Below are positions 9,094 through 26,071 of a DNA stretch of 37,874 nt, piece by piece. Source of the DNA: Bacillota bacterium (lineage in GTDB: Bacteria > Bacillota > Limnochordia > DTU087 > JAAYGB01); contig JAAYGB010000065.1 in the NCBI GenBank assembly GCA_012727955.1, positions 1 to 37,874 on the forward strand. The letters run 5' to 3'. A program made the translations under genes and the position numbers. A model generated the notes under the pieces. The model had not been told where the DNA came from and did not search any database. It saw only the letters and a list, made by a program, of their open reading frames with translations. Each line of letters begins with the position of its first letter. Within the stretch, counting starts at the first letter, position 1.

Positions 9094-9288
9094 GTGGATG
9101 TGACGGTAATCTACCGGATCGCGGGACTGGGAATTCTAATCGCTATCGTCACCATTGTTCTCAACCAAGCCGGACGCCAGGAGCAGGCCCAGCTCTTGAG
9201 TCTGGCCGGGGTGATTTTGGTGCTGCTGCTTTTGGTGCAGTTGATCAGCCAGTTGTTTGATCGAGTGGAAAGTGTGTTCCGCTGGTAG
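9094..9288 (+). CDS. spoIIIAC: Stage III sporulation protein AC
   Basis: Small integral membrane protein of the SpoIIIA complex, 64 residues with two hydrophobic helices (YRIAGLGILIAIVTIVL and SLAGVILVLLLLVQLI). The true start is most likely GTG 9094, giving MDVTVIYRIAGLG, which matches the family opening; the run of six G at 9081-9086 then serves as its ribosome binding site. The ATG at 9079 overlaps that G run and would add five unusual residues. Confidence 0.93.
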   Translation: MDVTVIYRIAGLGILIAIVTIVLNQAGRQEQAQLLSLAGVILVLLLLVQLISQLFDRVESVFRW

Positions 9289-19428: not shown

Positions 19429-20322
19429 GTGTCGATGAATTTTAGCGAATATGCCAAGACTTACCGGCCTTTTGTGGAGGCAGCTCTGGAGAAATATCTG
19501 CCCGACGAAGGTATGCAGCCCACAACCATCCATCGAGCAATGCGCTACAGTGCCCTCGGTGGAGGAAAACGTCTGCGGGCGCTGTTGGCCATTGCCGGTT
19601 GTCAGGCCGTTGGAGGAGATATCCGGCAGGTGGAACCCTTGGTAGCGGCCCTGGAAATGATTCATGCCTACAGTTTGGTACACGATGACTTGCCCTGTAT
19701 GGACGATGATGACTACCGACGGGGTAAGTTGACCTGTCACAAGGTGTTTGGGGAAGGACTCGCCGTCTTAACGGGAGACGCCTTGTTGACTCAAGGGTTC
19801 TACCTTATTTCCCGCTTGGCTGATGTCGGTGTCGATGGAGATACCATCACTCGGGTGTTGGCTGAATTGGGACAAGCCTGTGGAACCGATGGGCTAATCG
19901 GGGGGCAGGTTGTAGACCTGGAGTCCGAGGGCAAAGAGGTATCAAGAAGTACCCTAGAGTACATTCACACTCGTAAAACCGGTGCCCTTTTCAAAACCTC
20001 CATTCGCTGCGGCGCTATTATTGGTGGGGCTACCGATGACCAGCTGGACATCATTGACACCTATGCCGATAACTTCGGATTGGCCTTTCAGATCACCGAT
20101 GATATTCTTGACGTAGTGGGCGATGAAGCCAAGTTAGGCAAAGCCGTTGGCAGCGATGAGCGTCATGTCAAAGCCACCTATGTCTCAATCCTGGGTCTGG
20201 AGCAGGCTAAGCAAAGAGCGCAAGGAGCCATTGAGGCTGCCAAGGAGGCCATTGTGACCCTTGAGGGTAACACCGACGCCTTGGTGAGTTTGGCGGAATT
20301 CGTGATCGCCCGCGACCATTGA
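19429..20322 (+). CDS. ispA: Farnesyl diphosphate synthase (short-chain polyprenyl synthase)
   Basis: Condenses IPP with DMAPP/GPP to make farnesyl (or geranylgeranyl) diphosphate. The 297-residue protein has GGGKRLRALL, the first aspartate-rich motif DDLPCMDDD at residues 86-94, and the second, DDILD, at 224-228, in FQITDDILDVVGD. GTG 19429 or ATG 19435 may start translation; GAGGGAG lies just upstream. Product chain length cannot be fixed by eye. With dxs downstream it gives a methylerythritol-phosphate pathway cluster, here split by the OLE RNA and oapA. The stop codon overlaps the -35 element of the OLE promoter. Confidence 0.95.
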   Translation: MSMNFSEYAKTYRPFVEAALEKYLPDEGMQPTTIHRAMRYSALGGGKRLRALLAIAGCQAVGGDIRQVEPLVAALEMIHAYSLVHDDLPCMDDDDYRRGKLTCHKVFGEGLAVLTGDALLTQGFYLISRLADVGVDGDTITRVLAELGQACGTDGLIGGQVVDLESEGKEVSRSTLEYIHTRKTGALFKTSIRCGAIIGGATDDQLDIIDTYADNFGLAFQITDDILDVVGDEAKLGKAVGSDERHVKATYVSILGLEQAKQRAQGAIEAAKEAIVTLEGNTDALVSLAEFVIARDH

Positions 20323-20347
20323 CGGCCTATGGCCGGTTTGATATAGT
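20319..20347 (+). promoter_or_regulatory. Sigma-A promoter for the OLE RNA
   Basis: TTGACG (20319-20324), a spacer of exactly 17 nt, then TATAGT (20342-20347): each hexamer has one mismatch to consensus. The -35 overlaps the ispA stop codon. The expected transcript start is near 20354, about 28 nt before the closing helix of the RNA. Confidence 0.75.
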
Positions 20348-20381
20348 AAAAGAGATTCTCTTGTGACTCAATAGGGATTCA

Positions 20382-21025
20382 TCAAAGGGTGGAGCAGTAT
20401 TCTAGTCAGTCCTGCATCTCCCAAGACGGGCCTAAAAATCCGTTAAAGGCACATCGATGAAGTCCGTGGTGGTGGCTTTCGACGCCCAGTCGGGGGCTGC
20501 TGCTGGGGGTTAAGAGTTAGGGGCGATCCACAAGGGCATGTGGGCGTTGACCCCTTTCTCGTGGAGACCCAAGTTGCGTGGGGAAATGCCGTGGCTTGGC
20601 CAGGCATGGAACTACGGCTTGGGATGGGAACCTGCACGTGATGCGACAGACATTAGTCAAACATAATGTACATTTTGCGTTAGGTGCAGCGTAGCCTGCC
20701 TTGCGTGGTGTGGGGGGAATAGTGGGTTGAAGCTGCAATTTCGAAGGCCAAGAAATTGAGGTGGATTGCCCCTTGAAACCCATACTGCTACAGAGGCTAA
20801 GAGATGAGTTGGGCTGTTGAGGAAATCTCCTAGACTGTTCCAAATGGGAAGCGGATTGGGGATTGCGGTGTGGACTAAGTGGTAATCTAGCCCCGCTATT
20901 GGCGACAAGGCGGAGCGGAGGTAAAGGGGAACCGCCATTTTGGCAACGAAATGGTCCTCCGTTGGGAAAACCTGCTGGACCTAAGCCACAATGTTAACCC
21001 AATCCGTGTCCACCCTATATTTTGA
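20382..21025 (+). ncRNA. ole: OLE RNA (ornate large extremophilic RNA)
   Basis: A 750-nt region between ispA and the OapA gene has no credible protein gene but a dense nested fold. Closing helix: 20382-20393 pairs with 21009-21015 and, after a 5-nt bulge, 21021-21025. Inside are CGCCC/GGGCG (20483-20487/20521-20525), CCCAAG/CTTGGG (20568-20573/20618-20623) enclosing ATGCC/GGCAT (20586-20590/20603-20607), CTGCAC/GTGCAG (20632-20637/20684-20689) enclosing ACATTA/TAATGT (20650-20655/20664-20669), GTGGGTT/AACCCAT (20722-20728/20777-20783) enclosing CAATTTC/GAAATTG (20736-20742/20752-20758), and CGGATTGGG/CCCAATCCG (20852-20860/20998-21006) enclosing TGTGG/CCACA, AGCGGAGG/CCTCCGTT (20914-20921/20956-20963) and CCATTT/AAATGG (20935-20940/20949-20954). 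Known OLE RNAs are about 600 nt, bind membrane proteins in a ribonucleoprotein complex linked to stress tolerance, and typically sit between ispA and oapA-dxs. Ends are approximate; the transcript probably runs from about 20354 to about 21062. Confidence 0.9.
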
Positions 21026-21032
21026 CTTACTG

Positions 21033-21062
21033 AGACTTGGGTGAACCCCAAGTCTTTCTTTG
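21033..21062 (+). terminator. Terminator-like hairpin between OLE RNA and oapA
   Basis: AGACTTGGG (21033-21041) pairs perfectly with CCCAAGTCT (21047-21055) around a 5-nt loop, followed by TTCTTTG. The T-tract is broken, so termination may be partial, allowing read-through into oapA-dxs while setting the OLE 3' end. It lies just outside the OLE closing helix. Confidence 0.65.
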
Positions 21063-21073
21063 AGGTGAATGTC

Positions 21074-21664
21074 TTGCCTTCTCGCTGGCGAAGGGTTTCG
21101 GCTGTTTTTGTTCTGACATTCTTGATTTCCGTTACGTTATCATTGACCAGTAATACTGCGTTATCGTACTTACCTTTATTTCCCAGTATCGTCTTGCTTG
21201 CAGCTATAGTGTGGCTCGGTATTATTTTCGATATTGTCGGAGTCGCTGTTACCGTTGCCAACGAGGAACCCTTTCACGCCATGGCCAGCAAACGGATTCC
21301 TGGTTCTCGCCAAGGGGTATGGCTGATTCGGCGAGCGGAACAGGTAGCCAATTTCTGCAATGATGTGGTTGGTGACATTGCTGGGACCTTAAGCGGGGCC
21401 GTTGCTGCCGGGATTATCTTCTCCCTCACCCAGTACTCTCCAGAGCTCAATGAATCTTTACTGAACACCATTGGTGTAGGGTTGCTGGCAGCAGTCACCG
21501 TCGGCGGCAAAGCCTATGGAAAGGGTTTTGCCATATCCTATGCAGCTGATGTAGTTTTTCAAGTTGCCCGATTCCTCTATTGGGTAGAACGGGTGTTGGG
21601 CGTAACTATTTGTCGGTCAGGAAAGGATAAGAAAAAGGCTAAAGGGCGCAGGGGAAGATCGTAG
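21074..21664 (+). CDS. oapA: OLE-associated membrane protein OapA
   Basis: OapA is the membrane protein that binds OLE RNA and recruits it to the membrane. From TTG 21074 it has 196 residues: a basic N-terminus (SRWRR), predicted membrane helices at about 8-24, 35-61, 100-118 and 129-147, and a strongly basic tail (CRSGKDKKKAKGRRGRS) suited to RNA contact. After helix 2 is a conserved-looking block, D53, G56, then NEEPFHAMASK (63-73), and later CNDVVGDIAG (95-104). As I recall, this architecture resembles the membrane domain of CNNM/CorB-type Mg transporters. TTG 21074 is chosen because GAGGTGA at 21062-21068 lies 5 nt upstream; an earlier in-frame GTG at 21041 sits inside the terminator-like hairpin and has no ribosome binding site. 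Position between the RNA and dxs is the standard one. Confidence 0.88.
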   Translation: MPSRWRRVSAVFVLTFLISVTLSLTSNTALSYLPLFPSIVLLAAIVWLGIIFDIVGVAVTVANEEPFHAMASKRIPGSRQGVWLIRRAEQVANFCNDVVGDIAGTLSGAVAAGIIFSLTQYSPELNESLLNTIGVGLLAAVTVGGKAYGKGFAISYAADVVFQVARFLYWVERVLGVTICRSGKDKKKAKGRRGRS

Positions 21665-21709: not shown

Positions 21710-23746
21710 TTGGTGTCGATTTTGAACAGGATTACAGAGCCGTCGCAGCTAAAGAGCCTAGACAAAGAGGAATTGACCCAGTTGGCCGAAGAGATTAGGC
21801 AGATCATCGTCGAAACGGTAGCAGCAAATGGCGGTCACTTGGCACCCAACCTAGGTGTAGTGGAACTAACCCTTGCCCTGCATCGGGTTCTCAACGCCCC
21901 TCAAGACAAGATAGTTTGGGATGTCGGTCATCAAAGCTATACCCATAAATTGTTGACGGGACGCTACCAAAGTTTTTCCACCTTGCGGCAGTGGGGTGGT
22001 ATTTCTGGTTTCCCTCGAATGGATGAGAGTATTTACGACTCTTTCGGTGTCGGCCACAGCAGCACCTCGATTTCCGCGGCCTTAGGAATGGCGGTAGCCA
22101 GAGACTTAGCCGGCGAAGATCACGTGGTAGCTGCAGTCATTGGTGATGGAGCCCTTACCGGCGGATTGGCCTTTGAGGCCCTGAACAATGCCGGTCATCT
22201 GGGCGTTAACCTGTTGGTGATCCTAAATGATAACGAAATGTCTATTTCTCCCAACGTCGGAGCCCTCAGCCATTATCTGACACAGTTGCGCTTGGATCCG
22301 GTGTTGTCTCGCGCCCGGACGGACCTGGAGCGGGCCATCAAGCGCATCCCCGGCATCGGGGGTTCTATGCTGAAGATGGCGGATCTGATGACGGATATGC
22401 TGAAAACGGTATTGGTTCCTGGTCGTCTCTTTCAGGAATTGGGCTTTACTTACTTCGGGCCCATCGATGGCCATGACATTGTGGGAATGCAGCAGGTGCT
22501 TCGGGAGGCTCTGCGTCGGGATGGCCCGGTACTGGTACATACCATCACCAAGAAGGGCAAAGGGTGGCTGCCGGCGGAGATCAATCCTGAGAAATTCCAT
22601 AGTACTGGCCCCTTCTCTATTGAGAAAGCGCTAATGGAGTACAAGCTGGCGGAAAGCAACCTAGTTTCCATTCCTTCTGTCTCGCCGGCTCCGATTCAGG
22701 CCGAAGAAGACCAACAAGAGAGGATTTCCAGCTTCAGTGAGCTGCTGGGAGCTGCTTTGGTGGAGTTAGGCAAGATTGATGAAACCATTGTAGCCATCAC
22801 CGCCGCGATGCCCGAAGGCACCGGGTTGGCTCGCTTTGGTCGGATCTTTCCCCAGCGGTTTTTTGACGTAGGTATTGCCGAAGAGCACGGGGCTACCTTT
22901 GCCGCTGGATTAGTTGCCGGTGGCAGGAAGCCGGTTTTTGCTGTGTATTCTACCTTCCTGCAACGGGCCGTTGATCAGATTATCCATGATGTTTGCCTGC
23001 AGGAGCTGCCGGCGATCTTCGCCATCGATCGCGCGGGATTGGTTGGGGAAGACGGTCCCACCCATCACGGTGTCTTCGACCTTTCGTTATTACAGGCAAT
23101 ACCCAATCTGACTATTCTTGCTCCTCGAGATGGCAGGGAGCTAGTGGGGATGCTTAGTTGGGCCGTTAACTCCTCCCGGCCCGTTGCCCTTCGTTACCCG
23201 AGGGAGAAATTGGCCCAGCCCTTGACCTTAGCTGAGGTGAAGGCCTTGGTAGCCGAATATTTCCCTTCGTCCAGGTCCGGTGATCTCACCCAGTGGAGGC
23301 CCCAGGCAATCTGCGAGGGGACGGAAGGAGTAATTTTTGCAGCGGGTACCATGTGCCGCGTAGCTAGCCAAGCAGCGAAGTTACTGCAGACCCATTGTGG
23401 CATCGGGGCACAGGTTGTGAATTTGCGGACAATCAAACCCCTGGATACCGAAGCCATCTTTAGCTTTGTCGATGGTAAGCAATGGCTAGCCACTCTCGAG
23501 GAAAATGCCGTGGTAGGTGGGGTCGGTAGTCGGATTATCCAGGAACTAGCTTTGGCAGGAAAATTACCCCGGTATTGTTTGAATCTAGGTATTCCCGATG
23601 AATTTATCCCCCATGGCTCCAGAAAAAGACTCCTGGCCCAGATGGGGTTGACACCGGAGGCGGTGGCAGAGAAAATTCTGGAGAAGGTGGGAGTTCGGCA
23701 CCTTTTGGTGTCTAGCCGATGGACCGGTGGTAGTACAGGGAGATGA
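21710..23746 (+). CDS. dxs: 1-deoxy-D-xylulose-5-phosphate synthase
   Basis: First enzyme of the methylerythritol-phosphate isoprenoid pathway, joining pyruvate and glyceraldehyde-3-phosphate with thiamine diphosphate. The 678-residue protein (slightly longer than usual) has the N-terminal TPP domain (WDVGHQSYTHKLLTGR, GDGALTGG at 145-152, with Asn and Met of LNDNEMSISPN), the transketolase-like middle domain with Glu391 in GIAEEH, and the C-terminal transketolase domain (ATLEENAVVGGVGS). AGAGGGTGA (21698-21706) precedes TTG 21710; GTG 21713 is an equally good start. tlyA follows after 5 nt. Confidence 0.97.
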   Translation: MVSILNRITEPSQLKSLDKEELTQLAEEIRQIIVETVAANGGHLAPNLGVVELTLALHRVLNAPQDKIVWDVGHQSYTHKLLTGRYQSFSTLRQWGGISGFPRMDESIYDSFGVGHSSTSISAALGMAVARDLAGEDHVVAAVIGDGALTGGLAFEALNNAGHLGVNLLVILNDNEMSISPNVGALSHYLTQLRLDPVLSRARTDLERAIKRIPGIGGSMLKMADLMTDMLKTVLVPGRLFQELGFTYFGPIDGHDIVGMQQVLREALRRDGPVLVHTITKKGKGWLPAEINPEKFHSTGPFSIEKALMEYKLAESNLVSIPSVSPAPIQAEEDQQERISSFSELLGAALVELGKIDETIVAITAAMPEGTGLARFGRIFPQRFFDVGIAEEHGATFAAGLVAGGRKPVFAVYSTFLQRAVDQIIHDVCLQELPAIFAIDRAGLVGEDGPTHHGVFDLSLLQAIPNLTILAPRDGRELVGMLSWAVNSSRPVALRYPREKLAQPLTLAEVKALVAEYFPSSRSGDLTQWRPQAICEGTEGVIFAAGTMCRVASQAAKLLQTHCGIGAQVVNLRTIKPLDTEAIFSFVDGKQWLATLEENAVVGGVGSRIIQELALAGKLPRYCLNLGIPDEFIPHGSRKRLLAQMGLTPEAVAEKILEKVGVRHLLVSSRWTGGSTGR

Positions 23747-24701: not shown

Positions 24702-25589
24702 TTGATTATTGGTATAGTTCCTAATCTTCGCAATCGGCCGGCCCTTGAGCTGGCTAAGGAAATAAGTCACAAGCTCCAGGCCCAGGGCGTTTGTGTTTGG
24801 ATCGAGGCTGAGGCGGCAGCCTTGCTCCAGGTTCCCCAGGTAGTAGGCTGTCCTTTGACTGATCTGTCGGCAACGGATGTAGTCATCTCCCTAGGTGGCG
24901 ATGGGACACTGCTGCATACGGCACGTTCCTTGGCCGAGGCGGAGGTGCCGATTTTAGGGGTAAACCTAGGCCACCTAGGATTTCTTACGGAACTGGAAAC
25001 TCACGACTTGGAAGAAGGACTTAGACGCTTACTGCAAGGTGACTACACCGTAGAAGATCGGTTGATGCTATCGGCTCTTCATCGCACCCTCCATGCCCAG
25101 GAAGAGACAACCCCTTCCTACCTCGCTCTCAACGATGTCGTCGTATCCCGAGGGCCTTTGGCCCGAATGCTTACCATTTCCATCTTAGTTAATGATCAGC
25201 ATGTAGCCGATTACACAGCGGACGGGGTGATTGTGGCCACTCCCACGGGATCTACTGCCTATTCCTTGTCTGCCGGTGGTCCCATTGTCACTCCTAGTGT
25301 AGAGTCCATTCTAATTACCCCAATTTGCCCCCATTCTCTTTCGGCTCGTTCCGTACTGGTTCCCGCGAATGAAACGGTGTCTATTTGTGTAGAAAAAAGC
25401 CATGGGGATGCGATGTTAACAGCCGATGGCCAGACCACGGCTGCTCTTAAGGTTGGCGATGTTGTCGAAGTATCCCGGGCTCCTTGGGCTGCTCATTTCG
25501 TTCGGATGCAGCACCATAATTTCTATCAAGTAGTCTATCGTCGGTTGGGTCGTCGCGAAGTGAAGGAGATTGGAGGCGAGGCGGAGTGA
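24702..25589 (+). CDS. nadK: NAD kinase
   Basis: Phosphorylates NAD to NADP. The 295-residue protein has GGDGT at 65-69, GVNLGHLGFLTE, the conserved NDVVV segment and TPTGSTAYSLSAGGPIV, all diagnostic. The TTG at 24702 has only a weak ribosome binding site (GGGTG 6 nt upstream). A 122-nt gap separates it from tlyA and contains a small palindrome (CCTTGTCAAGG at 24660-24670) of unknown use. The stop overlaps the argR start (GTGA). Confidence 0.96.
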   Translation: MIIGIVPNLRNRPALELAKEISHKLQAQGVCVWIEAEAAALLQVPQVVGCPLTDLSATDVVISLGGDGTLLHTARSLAEAEVPILGVNLGHLGFLTELETHDLEEGLRRLLQGDYTVEDRLMLSALHRTLHAQEETTPSYLALNDVVVSRGPLARMLTISILVNDQHVADYTADGVIVATPTGSTAYSLSAGGPIVTPSVESILITPICPHSLSARSVLVPANETVSICVEKSHGDAMLTADGQTTAALKVGDVVEVSRAPWAAHFVRMQHHNFYQVVYRRLGRREVKEIGGEAE

Positions 25590-26071
25590 AAGCGCAACGG
25601 CATTCGACAATTATGCGAATTATTCGGGATATTGATGTGGAGACCCAGGAGGAGTTGGCGCAGTATTTGAGGCAGCAAGGGATCGCTGTCACCCAGGCGA
25701 CGGTGTCCCGGGACATTAAGGAGCTGCGCCTGGTGAAGATACCCAACGAACGGGGAGGTTATCGCTATGCGCCCCCCTTTGAGCCGGACTTAGGTGATGT
25801 GCGCAAACGAGCCCAGAGAACCTTTGAGGATTTTGTGATCGAGCAGGCCTTTACAGGGAATCTGGTAATTCTCAAAACCCTGCCGGGAACGGCGCCCGCG
25901 GTTGGGGCAGCCATCGATGATCTGGAATGGCCCGATGTGATCGCCACCCTTGCCGGGGATGATGTAGTCTTAGTGATCGTTAAGTCGGGAGAGTCTGGGG
26001 AAATAGAAGAGCCCACGGGGGCAATAGCTCAGGTCTTGGAAGGCTTTCGTAAGCTGCGGCAGGGGAAATAG
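25586..26071 (+). CDS. argR: Arginine repressor ArgR/AhrC
   Basis: Hexameric arginine-sensing transcription regulator. The 161-residue protein has a winged helix-turn-helix at the N-terminus (QEELAQYLRQQGIAVTQATVSRDIKELRLVKI, DNA-reading segment about 35-52) and the C-terminal arginine-binding domain (TLPGTAPAVGAAIDD, then TLAGDDVVLVIV). The GTG overlaps the nadK stop by 4 nt, with GGAGGCGAGG upstream. The argR-recN order is conserved across Bacillota. Confidence 0.96.
   Translation: MKAQRHSTIMRIIRDIDVETQEELAQYLRQQGIAVTQATVSRDIKELRLVKIPNERGGYRYAPPFEPDLGDVRKRAQRTFEDFVIEQAFTGNLVILKTLPGTAPAVGAAIDDLEWPDVIATLAGDDVVLVIVKSGESGEIEEPTGAIAQVLEGFRKLRQGK

Follow-up and report, generated by a model that had tools for sequence, protein, structure and literature searches.

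Introduction

The locus described here carries OLE, a large membrane-associated stress RNA on record in thousands of Gram-positive bacteria. The RNA is described as comprising a domain 1 (P3-P9) and a domain 2 (P1, P2 and P10-P15), connected by the P3/P3.1 neck, a proposed membrane-spanning stem (PMC12265935, whose helix names are used throughout). In a cryo-EM structure, the loops L4, L5.1, L6.1 and L9 form a dimer (PMC12286853). In Halalkalibacterium, mutation of residues D100 and D104 of the OLE-associated protein OapA is dominant-negative, and the naming of the OapB site follows the same study (PMC9723947). ArgR is a candidate partner of OLE, as yet unpublished (PMC12265935), while MpfA has been proposed as a substitute for the OLE complex (PMC11332333). 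A GTDB survey reports 2,822 Bacillota genomes with OLE; its main text does not name the Limnochordia, though its scope is the whole of GTDB (PMC11332333).

A full-length OLE RNA in a well-sampled class

When the window (the whole 37.9-kb stretch of DNA analysed) was scanned against all Rfam families with cmscan, the sole match was OLE (RF01071), at 20373-21029 on the plus strand. This Infernal search, proposed in the initial annotation, was clearly significant, with 466.7 bits against a gathering score of 50 and an E-value of 4.8e-134. The match spans model positions 1-616, that is, the full length, and the RNA is slightly longer than the model (657 nt versus 616 positions) by virtue of longer P7, P8 and P9 arms. 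The OLE identification has the full backing of the covariance model, of sequence conservation and covariation, of synteny and of the partner protein genes, each of these being established for the window RNA.

The window's genome holds one OLE only, and the closest of 118 aligned relatives is at most 72% identical to it. OLE was found in 64 of the 73 Limnochordia genomes, as well as in 217/299 and 283/397 genomes of the phylum (two overlapping samples). These counts, together with the 2,822 Bacillota genomes of the published survey (PMC11332333), do not sustain the description of this RNA class as rare. Likewise, the proposal that its presence in this lineage extends the range of OLE was ruled out by the class and phylum counts and fails because 64/73 class genomes carry the RNA and GTDB-wide surveys have already been published. 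The window ole gene is therefore a typical full-length OLE RNA, neither a new RNA kind nor a new range, and adds one more diverged sequence from a class already well sampled.

Compared with the full-length form (RF01071; PMC11332333), the window RNA likewise covers the whole model and has the P1-P13 region, the conserved loops and the partner genes, within the same ispA/oapA/dxs/argR/recN neighbourhood. It has the core nucleotides in common with OLE variants 1 (TANB77) and 2 (RF39) but retains P7, P8 and the OapB-binding region, which are shortened or missing in those variants, and its genome also encodes OapB and OapC. Specifically, variant 1 has short P7-P9 and often lacks the OapB site, whereas P7, P8, P9 and P12.2/P13 are all present here; variant 2 lacks P7 and P8, which map in the window to 20568-20623 and 20632-20689.

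Two apparent exceptions in other genomes were discarded: a 295-nt OLE match in G340, at first suggestive of a deletion variant, belongs to an OLE gene truncated at a contig end, and L134, considered as an OapA-only locus, proved to contain a diverged OLE of 264 bits. No OLE at the gathering score was detected at the OapA-like loci L121, L101, L097, L062 and L072, partly because some of them end near OapA at a contig end, L121 not being among these.

Gene neighbourhood and predicted transcription unit

The gene order around the RNA is xseA, ispA, ole, oapA, dxs, tlyA-like, nadK, argR, recN, and such surroundings have been described for OLE (PMC12265935). The relevant features are the following:

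19429-20322, plus strand: ispA-type polyprenyl synthase gene, the upstream neighbour (Pfam PF00348, 191.9 bits)
20319-20347, plus strand: predicted ole promoter of the sigma-70 type, TTGACG-17-TATAGT plus an extended -10 (TG), 10/12 consensus matches
21032-21056, plus strand: predicted terminator-like hairpin (AGACUUGGG/CCCAAGUCU) between ole and oapA, with a T-rich tail to 21061
21065-21664, plus strand: oapA (OLE-associated membrane protein A), starting at GTG 21065 or TTG 21074, 33-52% identity to OLE neighbours elsewhere
21710-23746, plus strand: dxs (PF13292, 394 bits)
25586-26071, plus strand: argR (PF01316 and PF02863)

The predicted promoter would place the transcription start at about 20354. 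The TTGnnn-17-TATAAT promoter of class relatives is typically separated from the GCAGTAT motif by 22-25 nt; the window has 47 nt there, which puts its promoter about 23 nt farther from the RNA, on the upstream side, than in most of them. The window promoter and the ispA stop codon overlap, and the promoter spacer holds a 5-bp GC inverted repeat (20323-20335).

Downstream of the RNA, the hairpin has a folding energy of -16.7 kcal/mol with flanks (z -2.87). Relatives of the same order have GGCTTGG/CCAAGCC hairpins at the same place, with G-C replacing A-U pairs. Most of the remaining families in the class lack the hairpin, which is thus an order-level feature. A stricter scan of the region did not report the hairpin at 21032-21056; its sequence, with the T-rich tail to 21061, suggests a terminator role. 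The limits of 20354-21062 initially assigned to the RNA fit both the predicted start and the end of the T-rich tail. Altogether, the ole gene of the window may be an independent transcription unit, with its own putative promoter and a terminator-like hairpin before oapA.

The RNA could alternatively act as a cis-regulatory leader of an oapA-dxs operon instead of as a free non-coding RNA, as it lies directly upstream of both genes on the same strand. Against this stand the terminator-like hairpin that follows ole in this order, the discrete OLE RNA of about 630 nt in Halalkalibacterium (PMC9723947) and the second OLE gene of a relative, which has no oapA and different downstream genes (see below). 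We consider a leader function very unlikely and favour a free OLE RNA.

Conservation and secondary structure

For the structural analysis we aligned 119 non-redundant OLE sequences, drawn from class relatives, from elsewhere in the phylum and from OapA-anchored loci in named genomes. Covariation was scored on all column pairs by an APC-corrected G statistic, with 199,406 pairs away from any helix as background; since all off-helix pairs were used, shared ancestry is partly controlled.

At the level of conservation, 171 alignment columns reach 97% or more among the 118 relatives, and the window RNA agrees with 170 of these near-invariant positions, deviating only at 20996. This bears on the possibility that the gene is a decayed or non-functional copy still resembling the family, in favour of which one may cite the score of 466.7 bits, lower than the approximately 580 bits of the best phylum members, and several non-canonical peripheral pairs of P7-P9. 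However, that score is typical for the class, the dimer loops are intact and the oapA, oapB, oapC and rpsU genes are present. A decayed copy is extremely unlikely and was rejected on the near-invariant positions kept. The chance that the region is instead a protein-coding stretch on the minus strand is negligible: open frames of 93-121 aa are present there, but this reading was rejected on the covariation and because none of these ORFs matches a Pfam family, in agreement with the initial description of the region as free of plausible protein genes, and the conservation pattern is that of a paired RNA whose fold is more stable on the plus strand (z = -7.45, antisense z = -3.60, from only 20 dinucleotide shuffles each).

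As regards the OLE fold, mapping the Rfam structure onto the window yields 18 helices with 156 pairs in total, nearly all of the core pairs being canonical. The elements of the RNA, all on the plus strand, are listed below:

20384-20393 with 21009-21018: P1, 5' and 3' strands, identified by covariation over 119 sequences, not in the Rfam structure line
20395-20398 with 20834-20837: P2, 100% canonical, mostly invariant
20407-20420 with 20801-20816: P3/P3.1, neck joining domains 1 and 2
20425-20444: P4 with A-rich loop CCUAAAAAUCC (dimer bridge B1), Rfam helix 1, loop letters shared with 93/118 relatives
20463-20509: P5/P5.1 with loop GCCC (dimer bridge B2), Rfam helix 2, CGCCCAG in 106/118
20514-20560: P6/P6.1 with loop AAGGGCAU, Rfam helices 3 and 4, loop variants AAnGGCAU
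20568-20623: P7, Rfam helix 5
20632-20689: P8, Rfam helix 6
20698-20797: P9 arm with palindromic GGCC loop at 20746-20749 (dimer bridge B3), Rfam helices 7-10, GGCC in 103/118
20850-20860 with 20998-21008: long-range helix of domain 2, Rfam helix 13, 8/11 pairs covarying above all background
20914-20963: Rfam helices 17-18, taken as P12.2/P13, the OapB-binding region, helices and loop kept

The covariation check in homologues of relatives showed that 43 of the 156 Rfam pairs covary above every one of the 199,406 background pairs, and pairs of P1 and P3 do so too. On P1, five of the ten pairs beat all background, four more rank just below and one is an invariant G-C; at pair 20388-21014, 75 sequences have GC and 33 AT, with 97% canonical. 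The top-ranked covarying pairs of P3 include 20409-20814, 20417-20804 and 20418-20803. P2 displays little covariation because it is mostly invariant. Helices 9-10, in the P9 region, are poorly supported, with 56-64% canonical pairs in the alignment, probably due to misalignment of this length-variable arm. The energy model alone also recovers P1 and the main junctions.

These data bear out the size, position and structure first described for this region of about 750 nt. In particular, the 9-bp helix 20852-20860/20998-21006 is perfect and forms part of Rfam helix 13, while the bulged long-range closing helix corresponds to P1 (20386-20393/21009-21016, with a few weaker outer pairs past the bulge), most pairs of which covary. 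The count of about a dozen nested helices was too low: Rfam alone has 18, to which P1, P2 and P3 are to be added. These last three (window 20384-20420, 20801-20837 and 21009-21018) are missing from the structure line of RF01071, although P1 and P3 belong to the helices with the strongest covariation, an omission that is a possibly useful by-product of this work.

The window RNA contains all the loops known to form the dimer, namely the A-rich L4, the GCCC of L5.1 facing the GGGC of L6.1, and the GGCC of L9, through which it may dimerise. The P6.1 loop AAGGGCAU complements the P5.1 loop of the other RNA in the dimer, and P6/P6.1 is also the region of the bS21 site.

OapA

The OapA-like gene initially noticed downstream of the RNA is oapA, with conserved D100/D104. 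It adjoins OLE in the window, likewise in 30 other loci examined, and its product (21065-21661) has 199 aa. Residues D56, D100 and D104 are invariant, D100 and D104 across 51 sequences. The window OapA has no Pfam match, and an OapA profile run against PDB sequences gave no match, which is why we turned to a fold search. The AlphaFold2 model is all-helical with a mean pLDDT of 91, and the only high-probability Foldseek matches were the CNNM transporters 7m1t, 7m1u and 7cff (probability 0.97-1.00, with weak E-values, the best being 0.012). Some OapA genes of the class match Pfam CNNM directly (E down to 9.6e-7), a relation in agreement with PMC11332333. The predicted structure thus suggests a CNNM-like fold, which OapA would have in common with the MpfA/CorC CNNM Mg2+ transporters while lacking their CBS and CorC_HlyC domains. 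OapA is missing from all nine class genomes without OLE, a co-absence expected from the published co-occurrence.

Partner genes and proposed mode of action

OapB and OapC are not universal among OLE genomes. The window's genome encodes OapA, OapB, OapC and bS21 (rpsU). The OapB gene is flanked by map and infA (L147:7170-7496), its product matching the solved OLE-associated protein B at E 3e-12, and the OapC gene by rpoC and rpsL (L148:2198-2455; product matching YbxF, E 2.4e-12).

We are almost certain that the locus is a canonical full-length ole gene with its own predicted promoter, whose RNA of about 700 nt would fold as OLE and act in a dimeric, OapA-anchored, partner-bound and stress-supporting particle. 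Specifically, transcription from the promoter at 20319-20347 would yield the RNA; domain 1 (P3-P9) would dimerise by way of its A-rich loop in P4, the loops of P5.1 and P6.1 and the GGCC loop of P9, while P1 together with the long-range helix would close domain 2. The RNA would be anchored at the membrane by OapA, a putative CNNM-like membrane protein encoded by the adjoining gene; OapB, OapC and bS21 would bind it, and the particle would aid the cell against stresses, Mg2+ stress included. Dimerisation, membrane location, partner binding and the stress role are proposed by analogy with the work in Halalkalibacterium and the cryo-EM of a clostridial OLE. The mode of action is likely that of the family, a dimeric OapA-anchored membrane ribonucleoprotein supporting stress tolerance.

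MpfA-type genes and a second OLE gene in a relative

The window's genome has one separate MpfA-type gene. Two or more MpfA-type CNNM genes were found in 4/9 OLE-less versus 6/64 OLE class genomes (Fisher p 0.017, in a small sample with kinship ignored); for any copy, p was 0.085. This small excess runs in the published direction. All three sampled genomes of family f124 (G299, G300 and G301) are without OLE and OapA and have two or three CNNM genes each, a possible family-level loss of OLE and OapA.

One Limnochordia genome, G319 (96% complete, 2% contamination), holds two full-length OLE genes, which we saw in no other of about 470 genomes surveyed, among the matches listed. The first is canonical and accompanied by oapA (L157). 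The second, L156:8992-8354 on the minus strand, is 91% identical to the first over the RNA only, has a predicted TTGCCG/TATAAT-type promoter of its own and lies on a 19.8-kb contig without oapA. In this region (L156:6157-10104, contig C52) we observed, downstream of it, an LPG_synthase_TM gene and a frame-split MpfA-type CNNM/CBS/CorC_HlyC gene; upstream, a diverging cation-efflux gene is headed by a NiCo riboswitch (9101-9179, plus strand).

The second gene may be a binning error. If it is genuine, this intact-looking, oapA-less OLE beside MpfA-type and NiCo-riboswitch cation-efflux genes, together with the possibly independent ole unit of the window, would give grounds for the idea, tentative and in our opinion unlikely, that OLE is separable from OapA in Limnochordia and works with other metal transporters. 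Its position beside MpfA bears on the proposal of MpfA replacing OapA and deserves a separate look.
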